Origin: Nitzschia sp. pyKryTriq1
Lineage: Eukaryota; Bacillariophyta; Bacillariophyceae; Bacillariales; Bacillariaceae
Length of the DNA stretch: 64,000 nt
Assembly (NCBI GenBank): GCA_956465555.1
Contig: OY101115.1
Location: 3,348,001-3,412,000 of the forward strand
Reading direction: 5' to 3'
Part shown: positions 13,839-19,294 of the stretch, one piece after another
Numbering within the stretch: the stretch's first letter is position 1
Layout of the letters: each line of letters opens with the position of its first letter
The notes under the pieces: model-generated
The model's input: the letters and a program-made list of their open reading frames with translations, nothing else
The model's database searches: none
What the model was told of the DNA's origin: nothing
Position numbers and translations under genes: made by a program

Positions 13839-15803
13839 ATGACCGACAATCAAGAAGAAACGGTGTGTACCAGGGTACTACAGTATGTACTATCCCAATG
13901 CCCCATGCCCAATGCCACGGCGGTCTGAGAGGAATCATCATCTCTGTGAAACTAACAACGTATCCATTTTCTTCTGTATTGTATTGTCAATCTTCAGGGG
14001 AAGTCCAAGCATGCCAATCGTCATATTAGCAAATTCTTGGAGTTGACAGCCCTCAACGAGGAAGACGTTCACAATCCTGTGCAATTGATTCGAGACGGGC
14101 GCCGCTTATCCGCGCAACGGCTGTTGCGTAACCAAGACTTGACATTGACGAAACCGATATTAGTACATGACACAGCGCGATCGATCGGAATGAAAATGCT
14201 GGCGTTTCCCCGAGGTCGACAAGTAACAGTCCGAGATGTAGCAGACCTATTGGGACACCAGTACCCCGTGCACGTTATTGATGTAGAGCACCAGGAAGAG
14301 TTGGAAGGCTGGACATTGGCGGATTTGGTGGACTATTTTGAAGATGAGGAGCGGCTTCTGCTTCAGCATCAGGAAGAGTTCCTAGCAACTCAAGAACACA
14401 ACAATGCTGCTGGATCCAAGCGACGACGACGAAAGGCTGCTGAGAAGTGTATGGACATGACCAATCGGCAACGACCCCGCGTTTTGAATCAAATTTCCCT
14501 TGAGTTCTCCAAGACTGCACTTAGTGAGAAAATCTTGTCTCCAGAGTTTGTCCGGGAGATAGATTGGATTGACCATGCCTGGCCTAGAAAAAGGAATCCC
14601 GACGGGACATTGGCGAGACCTGTGGACGAAGTGTACCCAAATGTGCAATACTATTGCTTGACGTCAGCTGCCGGATGCTACACCGATTTTCATTTAGACT
14701 TTGGTGGGACGTCAGTTTGGTACCATGTTCTCAATGGAGAAAAGGTCTTCTGCCTCATTCCACCCACAGAAGAGAACTTGGCGATTTACGAGGAGTGGCT
14801 GTGTAACCCCGATCAAGCTTCAATATTCTTGCCCGATCTTATACCAAATCATAAAGAAAATGTCCTTCGAATTTCCTTGAAAGAATCACAAACCTTGGTA
14901 ATTCCAACGGCATGGATTCACGCAGTATATACACCCTCGGATTCTTTGGTCATCGGTGGGAATTTCATGCACGGTCAAGATATCCCATTGCAGCTAGAAG
15001 TACATTGCATTGAAAGCCGGACTCGAGTGCAGGAAAAGTTTCGATTCCCTTTCTTCCTCCCATTGAATTTCTATGCAGGGGGCTATTACTTGCACAAACT
15101 TCGCAAGGGAAAAATTTCACAGCGGGAGGTGGAGGGGCTTGGAGAACTAGTGGACGCTTTGGACGAATGGTGGAAGCTCCATGCCCACTCTCAGTCACAA
15201 CTGCAAACTGGGCCGACAGTCGTCAATGCTGCTGCCGAATGCGCGAGGAAGAATGGGTGCAGTTCTGTGGAAGAATTCCTCGGCGAGCTTCGCAAAGAAC
15301 GTCAACGAGTAATGAAGGAGGGTATTGCGCCAAATCCCATTGCCCCCGTGAAATCGGAGGCTGGCACGGTGACTTCGACACCCCTCAAATCATCCACCTT
15401 GTCGCCCACGAAACCCAAGCTTCGACTGTCCTTGAAAGGAAACACCTTACTAGCCCCTACACCTCCCAAGCCGGATCCAAACCCGTCTACGGTACCAGCG
15501 GAAACTGAAGGGGACACCAAATCAGGGTCGGCCAGCAAATTCCGAATTGTCGTATCGTCCTCGAAATGGAACGCTTCGGTACCAGCCAAACAAAAGCGAC
15601 CCCGGGAAGACACGGAGTGGATTGATGATGGCTTGACAATGGAGGATGAATGGATGCCTGCAAAGGAGACGAAGAGTAAACGAAAAAGTGGCACCGCACC
15701 CAACCCCCGTCAGGGAAACGCTGCAAACGCCAATACTGCCCCTCCGCGATCTCAGCCCAAACCGTCGACTTCTCGTCAACGCCTCATGAAAAGGTTTCGC
15801 TAA
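13839..15803 (+). CDS. JmjC-domain histone demethylase, KDM2/KDM7-like
   Basis: The main exon is 13998-15803. A short first exon, 13839-13862 (MTDNQEET), joined through a 135-nt intron (GTGTGT ... TTCAG) gives 609 aa; the first exon is tentative, since the main exon has no in-frame ATG near its start. Residues about 220-350 form the JmjC fold: YTDFHLDFGGTSVWYHVLNGEK contains the HxD Fe(II) ligands and the Lys for 2-oxoglutarate, and WIHAVYTP supplies the distal His. The following helical region (GGYYLHKLRKG) matches KDM2/KDM7-type enzymes, which demethylate histone lysines in the nucleus. No PHD or CXXC finger is visible upstream, unlike animal KDM2/7. The last 150 residues are Lys/Pro/Ser-rich with KRPRED and a basic C-terminus that could act as a nuclear localisation signal. 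The active site looks complete. Confidence 0.85.
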
Positions 15804-15882: not shown

Positions 15883-17823
15883 CTAGCTAGAACCAATCTC
15901 GCTTAGATCATTTTCATCGCCCTCGGTTTTTGCTTCGTCCTCAGACGCAAGATGCACAAATGGCATTTTCTTGGGTTGCGGTGGCGAGATCAAGGAGCTG
16001 CCGTCAGGCGTTGTTGGTGGTGGAGCCGGTGGTGCCAAGAGCTGTACATCAGGATCCGGTGCTACGGCCGCCAATGCACTTTGAGTCAAATCAGCGGAAG
16101 GATTGCCGGATTTCAGAATTCCCAGCGCCGCCGCAGCCTCTTGCAGTTTCGCAATGGCCAATCCCTCGGCGTCTGGTGACGAATTGCTTGCCAGCCACTC
16201 AAGACAACCTTGGCGCTCCTCAAAGCCCACCGCAAATAGCAAATCCTTCCCGCCGGAAACCGCCTCTACTTTTTGAAAACTTTCATTAGTGGTAAAAATC
16301 TTGCGATAGCGCGGATTTCTTGGATTTCCAGTCAAGTTGATGATGTAAAGATACAAGAGTTGAGAACCCACTCGTAATGTGGTAGCATCATTTTCCTGCG
16401 CCATTTTCCGCACGGCTTGGCGCAGCGTGAGAGTACCAGTACTCGGAACAATACTATCTATACCTTTCTCGTTCAGTGCTGGTTCCCCGGGGAGCTTGAC
16501 AGGTGAGGTGGAAAAACTCAAGGCTTCTGCCGGTTTTGGTGGTGAGTGCGTACTCGGCGATGGCACTGGCACCGGTAGAGACTTTGTCTTTGATGGATGG
16601 GAAGCACAAGAGCTCTGTATCGAGTCGACACACTCTTCGAGTTTAGACAAGAGAGCCTCAAGTTGACTTTCCCAATCTTTCATGTTTCCGTTAGAATTTC
16701 CACTTTGGCCTTGAAGATTCCGAAGTTCGCGAAGCTCGCTCTTGATCTCGAGGAGCTGTGCCCATAACAGTAGACCGTCGGATGCTCTTCTCGGTTCGTC
16801 ATCACTTCTAGAAACAGCACTCGAAGCTCGCAGCAACTCCATGGAATGATTGGTGATGGATGTCCCTTGACTGGAGAGTTTCTGGAGTATTTTTTCCTGC
16901 AAAGAAACATGCGCTTTCATACTCTCGGATATGGACTGTACTTCTTGCAAGAGTTTTTCTTGTGCCTCTGGAACCGAGTGACTTTCATCCATCTCCTCTT
17001 CATCAGTAGTATATTCAATTTGATCCTCGTCGTCCTCGTCTTCATTGCCGCCTATTTCATCCTCATCATCAACAACAACCTCGTCGTCGTCGTAACTACC
17101 TCGATCCTCGGCTCGACGGTTACGCAAAATCAAACGTTGGTGTTGTTGTTGTTGTTGTTGTTGTTGTTTCATCTCTTCTTCTTGTAGTGCTGGAGGCGGC
17201 AGCAGTTGAAAATCCCCTCCATTCAACCAACGTGCCGCAGCTGCCGCCGTTAAGCCCACAAACCCACCTAGAGCCACCAGGGAAACTCCTTGAAGAAAGG
17301 GACCTGGCCCATCCTCCTCTTCATATCGAGGGGGGTAGGGCGATGAATAGGGTGCACTGTTTGTGGTACGATATGGATCCTGGGGAGGATACTGAAGAGG
17401 GGGATTCAAATACGGATTGGTGGACGAGGCTGGATGCTGCGGTTGTAAATTATTGGCTGGCGCGATAGGAACTGGAGGAGGAGGAGGATTCGATACTGGC
17501 GACGCGTTCGTGGATGCAAGATGCTGCTGCTGCTGCTGCTGACCAGGATCTTCCTCGACGGCGGGTTTCTCTTCCAAAATGCGATCCCACGCTTTGTGAA
17601 TCTGCGCATCCGTCACTCCCTTTTCATAAAGGTATTGTTGTTTTTGTTCCATGGGGATGTCTCGAAGCGATGGATGCTTCCAGAAGCGAAGGGCCTTGGC
17701 AATATTGGCTTCATCCTCGTCGTTATCACTCTTTCCTTCGACGTCGTGTTGACGTAACTGTTCGCTGTGGATTGGCGGTGACAAGGTGGCAGGCCCTTCG
17801 GCAGATGACGACTCCTTGCTCAT
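15883..17823 (-). CDS. PEX14: PEX14 peroxisomal docking protein with a C-terminal PUB domain
   Basis: Single exon, 646 aa, ATG at 17823. Residues 40-86 match the PEX14 N-terminal domain that binds the PEX5 receptor (ALRFWKHPSLRDIPMEQKQQ, then YLYEKGVTDAQIHKAWDRIL). A Pro/Gln/Ser linker follows, then one hydrophobic segment at about 178-200 (GVSLVALGGFVGLTAAAAARWL), a polyQ tract (CAA repeats at about 17138-17169), an acidic stretch and a coiled coil at about 270-385, all as in PEX14. Residues about 465-560 are not PEX14-like: TLRQAVRKMAQENDATTLRV, LYIINLTGNPRNPRYRKIF, TNESF and LLFAVGFEE match the PUB domain, a fold that binds the C-terminal tail of Cdc48/p97. The fusion would place a Cdc48 docking site on the peroxisomal import pore (inference). 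It is divergent from COQ4. Confidence 0.85.
   Translation of the reverse strand: MSKESSSAEGPATLSPPIHSEQLRQHDVEGKSDNDEDEANIAKALRFWKHPSLRDIPMEQKQQYLYEKGVTDAQIHKAWDRILEEKPAVEEDPGQQQQQQHLASTNASPVSNPPPPPVPIAPANNLQPQHPASSTNPYLNPPLQYPPQDPYRTTNSAPYSSPYPPRYEEEDGPGPFLQGVSLVALGGFVGLTAAAAARWLNGGDFQLLPPPALQEEEMKQQQQQQQQHQRLILRNRRAEDRGSYDDDEVVVDDEDEIGGNEDEDDEDQIEYTTDEEEMDESHSVPEAQEKLLQEVQSISESMKAHVSLQEKILQKLSSQGTSITNHSMELLRASSAVSRSDDEPRRASDGLLLWAQLLEIKSELRELRNLQGQSGNSNGNMKDWESQLEALLSKLEECVDSIQSSCASHPSKTKSLPVPVPSPSTHSPPKPAEALSFSTSPVKLPGEPALNEKGIDSIVPSTGTLTLRQAVRKMAQENDATTLRVGSQLLYLYIINLTGNPRNPRYRKIFTTNESFQKVEAVSGGKDLLFAVGFEERQGCLEWLASNSSPDAEGLAIAKLQEAAAALGILKSGNPSADLTQSALAAVAPDPDVQLLAPPAPPPTTPDGSSLISPPQPKKMPFVHLASEDEAKTEGDENDLSEIGSS
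17138..17169. repeat. CAA/TTG trinucleotide tract (polyQ)
   Basis: GTT/TTG repeats on the plus strand encode a Gln run in PEX14 on the minus strand. A second, shorter Gln run is encoded at about 17520-17541. Confidence 0.8.
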
Positions 17824-18294
17824 TGTGCCCTTCGACTTGTGATTTTACTTGCTTGTGTGAGTCTTCTCTCTCTCTCTCTCACACACACACACACTAGCTC
17901 TTCTACTGGCTAGTAGGTCTATTAGTATGATGAGGGCCGTTGAGATGAATTATGTCAAGGGAAGAAAGGATTACTCTACTCGTACCGGTAGCAAGCAAGT
18001 AGCGCAGGAAAAAAAATAACAGCATCAACTCTCAACGCCGCCTTCCTCGAACGTCGCATCGATCAACGCGATCAATGACGCTTCGCTTTTTGATCCTGCG
18101 GGTCGAACCGCGAAAAGTTCGCGCGCAACAATAAGGGGCGGCGGCGACCCGGGGTGCGATGAGGAACGAACGAATGTGACGAAAACTCAGATTTCAGGCT
18201 CTGTTCGTTATGTATTATCGTTTACTTGCTGCTTTGCTCCCATACCAGTCTAATCTGCTCCACTACACTGCCACCAGCATCAACATATTCGAGC
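17824..18294. other. divergent promoter region, PEX14 / COQ4, with TC/AC microsatellite
   Basis: 471 nt between divergent start codons. A (TC)n(AC)n dinucleotide tract lies at about 17864-17894, close to the PEX14 start. GC-rich DNA with CGCG runs lies at 18040-18160. No specific element assigned. Confidence 0.5.
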
Positions 18295-19294
18295 ATGTGG
18301 AAATGTATTCAGTCATCGCTGCCATCGAGAGCCACGGCTGGTACTAGAAGCATTCTCCGGCGATGCCAAGAGCAATGTGTCAATCGGATTTTTTCTTTTG
18401 CCAATCATGCCTTCTCCACGGCGTCCACGGACGAGCCGTTCTATGGAAGGCCACGAGTGCCCCAATCCAAGCAACCACGTTCCATCCAAAATCGACTAGC
18501 TGTCGCGATTCATTATGCGACCACCGCCTTTTCCGACCCCACACGAGCGGATGCCGTGGCGGCCTTGGGAGAGATTACGGGTCCTGTCACCCTCCGACGA
18601 CTCGCTCAACAAATGAGACAGAATCCCGTCGGGAAACGGATTTTGCAAGATCGACCAGTGGTCAGCAAAGCCACGATTCCATACGAGAAATTTATTGCAG
18701 AAGCACCGAAAGACCATGTAAACCACCCCGATGTGACCTTTGGACAAGCCTATGGATTCTTTTTGAATTCGCATGAATTTGATCCCGATGAACGAGATGA
18801 CGTTCGATTTGTGGAAGACGAAGAACTCGCCTACATTATGCTACGGTATCGGCAGGTACGTCATTATTTTACATTACATTTTGAGAATCGATCAAAACTC
18901 TATCTTTTCATGGTGCGTGTGTCATAGTAGCACCGACTCACCTATCGGTATTTGGAATACTCAACTTCTTCTTGGATACTACCAGTGCCATGACTACTGG
19001 CATACTCTCACTGGTCTACCACCGACGGTATTGGGAGAACTAGGACTGAAATGGTTGGAACTCTTCCAGACTGGATTGCCCATTGCCGCCTTGTCGTCGA
19101 CAGTAGGTTCATTGCGACTGGATCCCGACGAACGAGAGATATTGCTAGAGCAGTATCTGCCCTGGGCGTTGGAGCAGAGTCGCAACATGACAACCTCTTT
19201 GTTGAATGTCTACTACGAGGAAGAGTTTGATACGCCATTGATCGAGTTGAGAGAACGATTGAACATTCAACCAGCACCGGAAGTGGCGAAGTAA
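18295..19294 (+). CDS. COQ4: ubiquinone biosynthesis protein COQ4
   Basis: Two exons, 18295-18855 and 18986-19294 (130-nt intron, donor AG|GTACGT, acceptor ACCAG), give 289 aa. I chose the ATG at 18295 because the frame further upstream lacks ATG. The N-terminus (MWKCIQSSLPSRATAGTRS ... FSTAS) is rich in Arg/Ser and free of acidic residues, a mitochondrial presequence. The body matches COQ4 (NRLAVAIHYATTAFSDPTRA, DAVAALGEITGP, LRRLAQQM). The metal-binding motif HDxxH-x11-E is intact as HDYWH...E in LTGLPPTVLGELGLKWLE, directly after the intron. COQ4 acts in coenzyme Q ring modification within the CoQ synthome of the inner mitochondrial membrane. Divergent neighbour of PEX14. Confidence 0.93.

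Follow-up and report, generated by a model that had tools for sequence, protein, structure and literature searches.

The window, the whole stretch of 64,000 nucleotides that was analysed, carries on its minus strand a gene whose sequence confirms that PEX14 and a PUB domain are joined in one open frame. Its features, in window positions, are the following.

15883..17823, minus strand: PEX14-PUB gene, a single open frame of 646 codons with no intron and no internal stop
17590..17715, minus strand: Pex14_N domain of the PEX5-binding type (residues 37-78, Pfam)
17209..17283, minus strand: predicted membrane segment (helix at residues 181-200) with the motif RWLNGGDF (residues 198-205)
16978..17106, minus strand: acidic linker (residues 240-282), D or E at 24 of 43 residues
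16603..16974, minus strand: predicted helices (residues 284-407, AlphaFold model), the coiled coil of the preliminary description
16105..16428, minus strand: PUB domain (residues 466-573)
16285..16347, minus strand: stretch of the PIM pocket (Y493, N496, Y506, F510, N513)
15967..15990, minus strand: short C-terminal motif ISPPQPKK, a loose pattern of which is present in 11 of 53 homologues

Upstream of the ATG, the frame stays open for seven more codons and then reaches a TAA. The neighbouring genes encode a JmjC protein (14037-15803, plus strand) and Coq4 (18226-19294, plus strand), the profile match of the latter being divided between two frames.

Both domains scored above their Pfam cut-offs, Pex14_N with 25.5 bits (cut-off 23.2, residues 37-78) and PUB with 39.7 bits (cut-off 34.3, residues 484-539); NCBIfam profiles gave no match. 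The union of PEX14 and PUB in one uninterrupted exon, as proposed in the preliminary description, thus stands, and the motifs cited there were found again as NPRNPRYRKI, NESF and LLFAVGFEE. A PUB profile search and a structure prediction of the PUB segment had been named beforehand as checks. The former gave the Pfam match and the latter a PUB fold at about residues 466-573, so that the domain lies where it had been placed (465-560) but extends slightly further. The overall pLDDT of the AlphaFold model is 65.0, with most 10-residue blocks above 90 in both domains and poor values for the linkers and the surroundings of the membrane segment, where the helix at residues 181-200 is modelled at low to middling pLDDT. 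Hydropathy (Kyte-Doolittle, 19-residue window) reaches its maximum of 1.82 at residues 179-197, and the next best value elsewhere is 1.14; this single peak above 1.6, C-terminal to Pex14_N, predicts the one membrane segment expected of a PEX14. The proposed coiled coil fared less well: helices are predicted at residues 284-318, 322-333, 344-373 and 378-407, but the match of solved PEX14 to this stretch reached only 8.9 bits and was not significant.

A profile of the window protein and 36 homologues (37 rows) matched solved structures of both families on separate stretches, the PUB domain of UBXD1 (6sap) with an E-value of 9.7e-8 and PEX14 (8gi0_F) with 1.5e-7 over the whole chain and 4.8e-5 over the N-domain stretch. 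The window protein resembles PEX14 in having Pex14_N, then one predicted membrane segment and then predicted helices, and differs from it by the C-terminal PUB domain and by long acidic and Q/P-rich linkers. For PEX14, the domain table in the accessible part of one survey names Pex14_N only (PMC8172628).

Two protein searches, yielding 36 and 34 proteins, provided a homologue set of 53 distinct proteins. The first scored the best 7993 word-sharing candidates, among which low-complexity words may have displaced some; the second, with the PUB region as query, contributed 17 new proteins among its 34 matches. Counts out of 54 given below refer to the 53 homologues plus the window protein, and those out of 37 to the rows of one alignment. 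That most of these homologues are from diatoms is inferred from named relatives of Pex6. From other stramenopiles no homologue was recognised in searches that need shared five-residue words and in which few matches carry organism names.

Homologues from other contigs show their domains in the same order. One of them, P0167, represents a cluster with JGI and MMETSP (transcriptome) sources, the MMETSP entry being labelled a complete ORF. N-domain, membrane motif and PUB are present in this one protein, the sequence of which may be from either source; its N-domain matched our own profile at 2.5e-19 as an independent row and Pfam only at 0.026, below the cut-off. That two separate genes or a misassembly were taken for one is therefore extremely improbable. 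We found no point in its support, and this explanation was rejected on the basis of the intronless open frame and of the recurring order in homologues on many contigs, besides the transcriptome-labelled cluster.

The membrane motif RW[LI]NGG is found in 51 of 54 sequences, with one further protein (P0158) having the variant RWLDGG, and R198, W199, N201, G202 and G203 are invariant in all 37 aligned rows. A Pex14_N-type domain was detected in 37 of 54 sequences at E < 1e-3 with a profile built from the N-domains of 26 of the 37 aligned rows, which match by construction; of the 17 proteins added afterwards, 10 gave a match. With Pfam alone at E 0.001, Pex14_N was found in 24 of 37 rows and PUB in all 37. 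Accordingly, 17 of the 53 homologues lack a detectable Pex14_N. Eight homologues (P0029-P0032, P0034, P0035, P0165 and P0171) share the C-terminal end WK, and none of them has a detectable Pex14_N.

The protein might then not be a working peroxisomal PEX14 at all, its conserved core consisting of membrane segment plus PUB (51 and 54 of 54 for the respective motifs, as compared to only 37 for Pex14_N), its N-domain being optional and its location another membrane. In line with this, 10 of the 17 proteins without Pex14_N have longer N-termini, with at least 70 residues before the membrane motif. The other seven begin within about 40 residues of the motif or at it (P0016, P0026, P0035, P0158 and P0165) or after it (P0160 and P0169), which points to gene models that are truncated or exon-wise. 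Moreover, Pex1, Pex6 and matches to the Pex2/Pex12 family are present in this genome, and the window gene holds its only Pex14_N copy found. No additional PEX14 lacking PUB turned up in a frame search that may miss an intron-split domain: even at a limit of E 1, the domain described here was the sole Pex14_N match. PEX13 and Pex26 gave no Pfam match either, and neither did the controls, so that nothing follows from this. Taken together, we regard a non-peroxisomal role as doubtful.

The PUB domain carries the known features of a p97-binding pocket except for one. In UBXD1 and PNGase, YxxN(x)9Y has been described as essential for the binding of PIM, and K/RxxN is common to UBXD1, PNGase and HOIP (PMC6995525, in the part available). 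In the window protein, the corresponding residues are Y493, N496, Y506 and F510xxN513. All 54 sequences have the first of these motifs; some bias towards intact PUB domains is built into this count, since the homologues were found by similarity and one search used the PUB region itself. The clamp position of the second motif, K or R in the known domains, is occupied by F (26 rows) or Y (11 rows) in all 37 aligned sequences, with the following Asn kept in 35. By pattern over the 53 homologues, F or Y was found at the clamp in 52 and Asn in 48. Eight pocket columns, picked from the literature and recall after the alignment had been seen and including the changed clamp column, have a mean entropy of 0.24 as compared to 1.41 for the whole domain, and only 2 of 100000 random eight-column sets were as conserved.

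Because the clamp residue is aromatic, the pocket is no plain copy of that of PNGase. From the PNGase PUB domains (2hpj, 2hpl, 2ccq) it differs by the change of R55 to F, and no other enzyme domain was detected by Pfam. UBXD1 gave the best profile match and shares YxxN(x)9Y; in contrast to UBXD1, the window protein has no UBX domain detectable by Pfam, the position of K198 is replaced and the protein is predicted to be membrane-anchored. Mutation of PNGase R55 was reported to abolish p97 binding, whereas in the model of the authors the UBXD1 Lys at the clamp position makes no contact with the p97 carboxylate (PMC6995525, in part), and thus the clamp may be dispensable.

The genome has PUB domains at 12 places, 11 of them beyond PEX14 and one of these below the Pfam cut-off. 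The comparison took in 11 places, with a single member of a near-identical pair; among these, Y38, N41, Y51 and N58 (PNGase numbers) occur together only in the PUB of PEX14. L049, with both Tyr residues, Asn at 41 and also Arg at 55, departs from this set by Gly at 58, and the PNGase-like L050, which contains a stretch that we take by eye to be the PNGase core, has Phe at 51. Judged by eye, the parts fused to the PUB domains of L041-L051 are of thioredoxin-like, UBA, ubiquitin-like and PNGase-like types. Two of these genes, L042 (G000:C1:4249900) and L043 (G000:C3:3109648), appear by eye as almost identical ubiquitin-like plus PUB genes on different contigs and either arose by recent duplication or were duplicated in the assembly.

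The missing clamp residue might also mean that the PUB ligand is something else, such as an internal PIM, a partner without PIM or a ubiquitin-like domain. Precedents exist in HOIP-OTULIN (internal PIM) and SPATA2-CYLD (no PIM), according to the accessible parts of PMC6995525 and PMC4017264. We consider this rather unlikely, as the first motif Tyr, lost in the SPATA2 PUB (PMC6995525, in part), persists in all 54 sequences here and the PIM pocket columns vary far less than the domain does on average.

Candidate ligands were sought among the C-terminal tails of AAA+ motors, with 20 of 126 candidates scored; the motor names are our assignments from sequence motifs recognised by eye. Two Cdc48 proteins end with the binding motif, one in DDDEEEDLYS (C3) and the other in AAEEDLYG (C10), whereas a third Cdc48-like protein (C2; L035, G000:C2:2592500-2599000) with a frame of 821 residues ends in GGDEE and has no DLY tail. 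The Pex1 open frame (C15) ends in HELKTTLR and lacks the motif, although a further exon is possible. Pex6 was not matched by two degenerate DNA patterns but was found with the yeast Pex6 as query, and its identity is backed by relatives named peroxin-6. Its two joined exons (C10; G000:C10:1081074-1081691, L055, L065) give 857 residues, counted from the first likely Met, and end in PIEHEGDVFY.

The last eight residues of this Pex6 run past the end of most other Pex6 rows among the best 120 of 7725 matches. Of these rows, 113, including the Pex6 of this genome, reach the end of D2, and at least two of the 113 (P0155 and P0156) are unlike Pex6. The pattern [DE][VILMF]FY near the end picks 15 of the 113, all at least 61.9% identical to the Pex6 of this genome among the matches listed, and 14 of the 19 end-reaching rows at 68.6% identity or more. 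It is preceded by Gly in 15 of 15 picked sequences, with varying residues further upstream, and followed by one to five residues in 6 of the 15. Among the matches listed, the PIM-like end G-[DE]-hydrophobic-F-Y is confined to close relatives of this Pex6.

Such a tail raises the possibility that the PUB domain mainly recruits Pex1/Pex6 and acts as the peroxisomal anchor of this motor. The picking pattern occurred in 107 of 30000 shuffled tails and in none of 159 other fetched proteins, and the absence of a Pex26 match, in a search without positive control, would fit. A PUB domain without carboxylate clamp could take the longer forms (FYQAEV) as well, for which PNGase R55A, having gained binding to an internal PIM (43 uM), offers a precedent (PMC4017264, in part). 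However, the motif is present in only 14 of the 112 other end-reaching rows among the best 120 of 7725, one of which is 98.5% identical and perhaps from the same species, and it is missing in the rows named Fistulifera (P0071), Cylindrotheca (P0040, P0045) and 'Thalas...' (P0080). By contrast, the PUB pocket is kept in every PEX14-PUB homologue found. DVFY is not an exact PIM, having either Phe at the motif Tyr or nothing after the Tyr, and the Pex1 open frame ends without such a tail. An anchor chiefly for Pex1/Pex6 thus seems unlikely. Since the pocket is kept in every homologue found and the tail is missing from most Pex6 rows, Cdc48 is more likely to be the general partner, in a comparison of two separate searches that were not species-matched; the missing clamp residue tempers this assignment.

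We therefore consider it probable on balance that the protein is a diatom-type PEX14 whose cytosolic PUB domain holds the tail of an AAA+ motor, most likely Cdc48, at the import pore. Domain order, predicted folds, conserved pocket and motor tails form the direct basis of this reading. The N-terminal domain would dock the receptor PEX5 and a single helix would anchor the protein in the peroxisomal membrane. Human PEX14 has its N-terminus inside and its C-terminus in the cytosol (PMC8172628, in part); with the same topology, the C-terminal part would extend into the cytosol, and the PUB domain should face Cdc48. There it may grip the C-terminal tail of the motor, for which DLYS, the canonical PUB ligand, makes Cdc48 the best candidate. 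Cdc48 placed at the pore could pull ubiquitinated receptor or stuck clients from the membrane. Alternatively, the tethered motor might regulate peroxisome turnover; p97 together with UBXD8 has been named as a regulator of pexophagy (PMC11851658, in part). Against the Cdc48 reading count F or Y at the clamp in 37 of 37 rows and the 17 of 53 homologues without detectable Pex14_N. Overall, the interpretation offered in the preliminary description is partly supported.

A broader version, which we hold to be a possibility worth keeping in mind though not a likely one, is that PEX14 itself is a motor receptor for which Cdc48 and the PIM-tailed Pex6 of one diatom group, including a Nitzschia, compete or alternate. 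Two motors with a presumed common origin, Cdc48 of the ERAD type and Pex1/Pex6, would in this case be physically joined at one docking protein. The plastid translocon SELMA works with Cdc48 and a PUB protein. By analogy, the window gene would represent a second use of Cdc48 at a diatom import site; in contrast to SELMA, it encodes a peroxisomal docking protein whose link to Cdc48 is a proposal.

In the open-access literature searched, no joint description of 'PEX14' with 'PUB domain' was found, and the architecture appears undescribed there, although automatic databases may list it. A PEX14 has been reported from Nannochloropsis in a paper whose available part does not mention a PUB domain (PMC7710942). 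Pex13 and Pex14 were not found in Phaeodactylum tricornutum (Gonzalez et al. 2011, PMC3178647), and their absence was repeated for T. pseudonana and P. tricornutum (PMC7549135), as stated in the accessible parts of both papers. With PEX14 reported missing in two diatoms, the gene is of interest as a PEX14, too. The reported absence had left the docking of PEX5 in such algae unexplained, and a clear PEX14 in a diatom-type genome, together with many homologues, answers part of this question. Its PUB domain makes a direct connection of the import pore with an AAA+ motor testable and suggests that diatom algae plug a Cdc48-type motor directly into peroxisome import.
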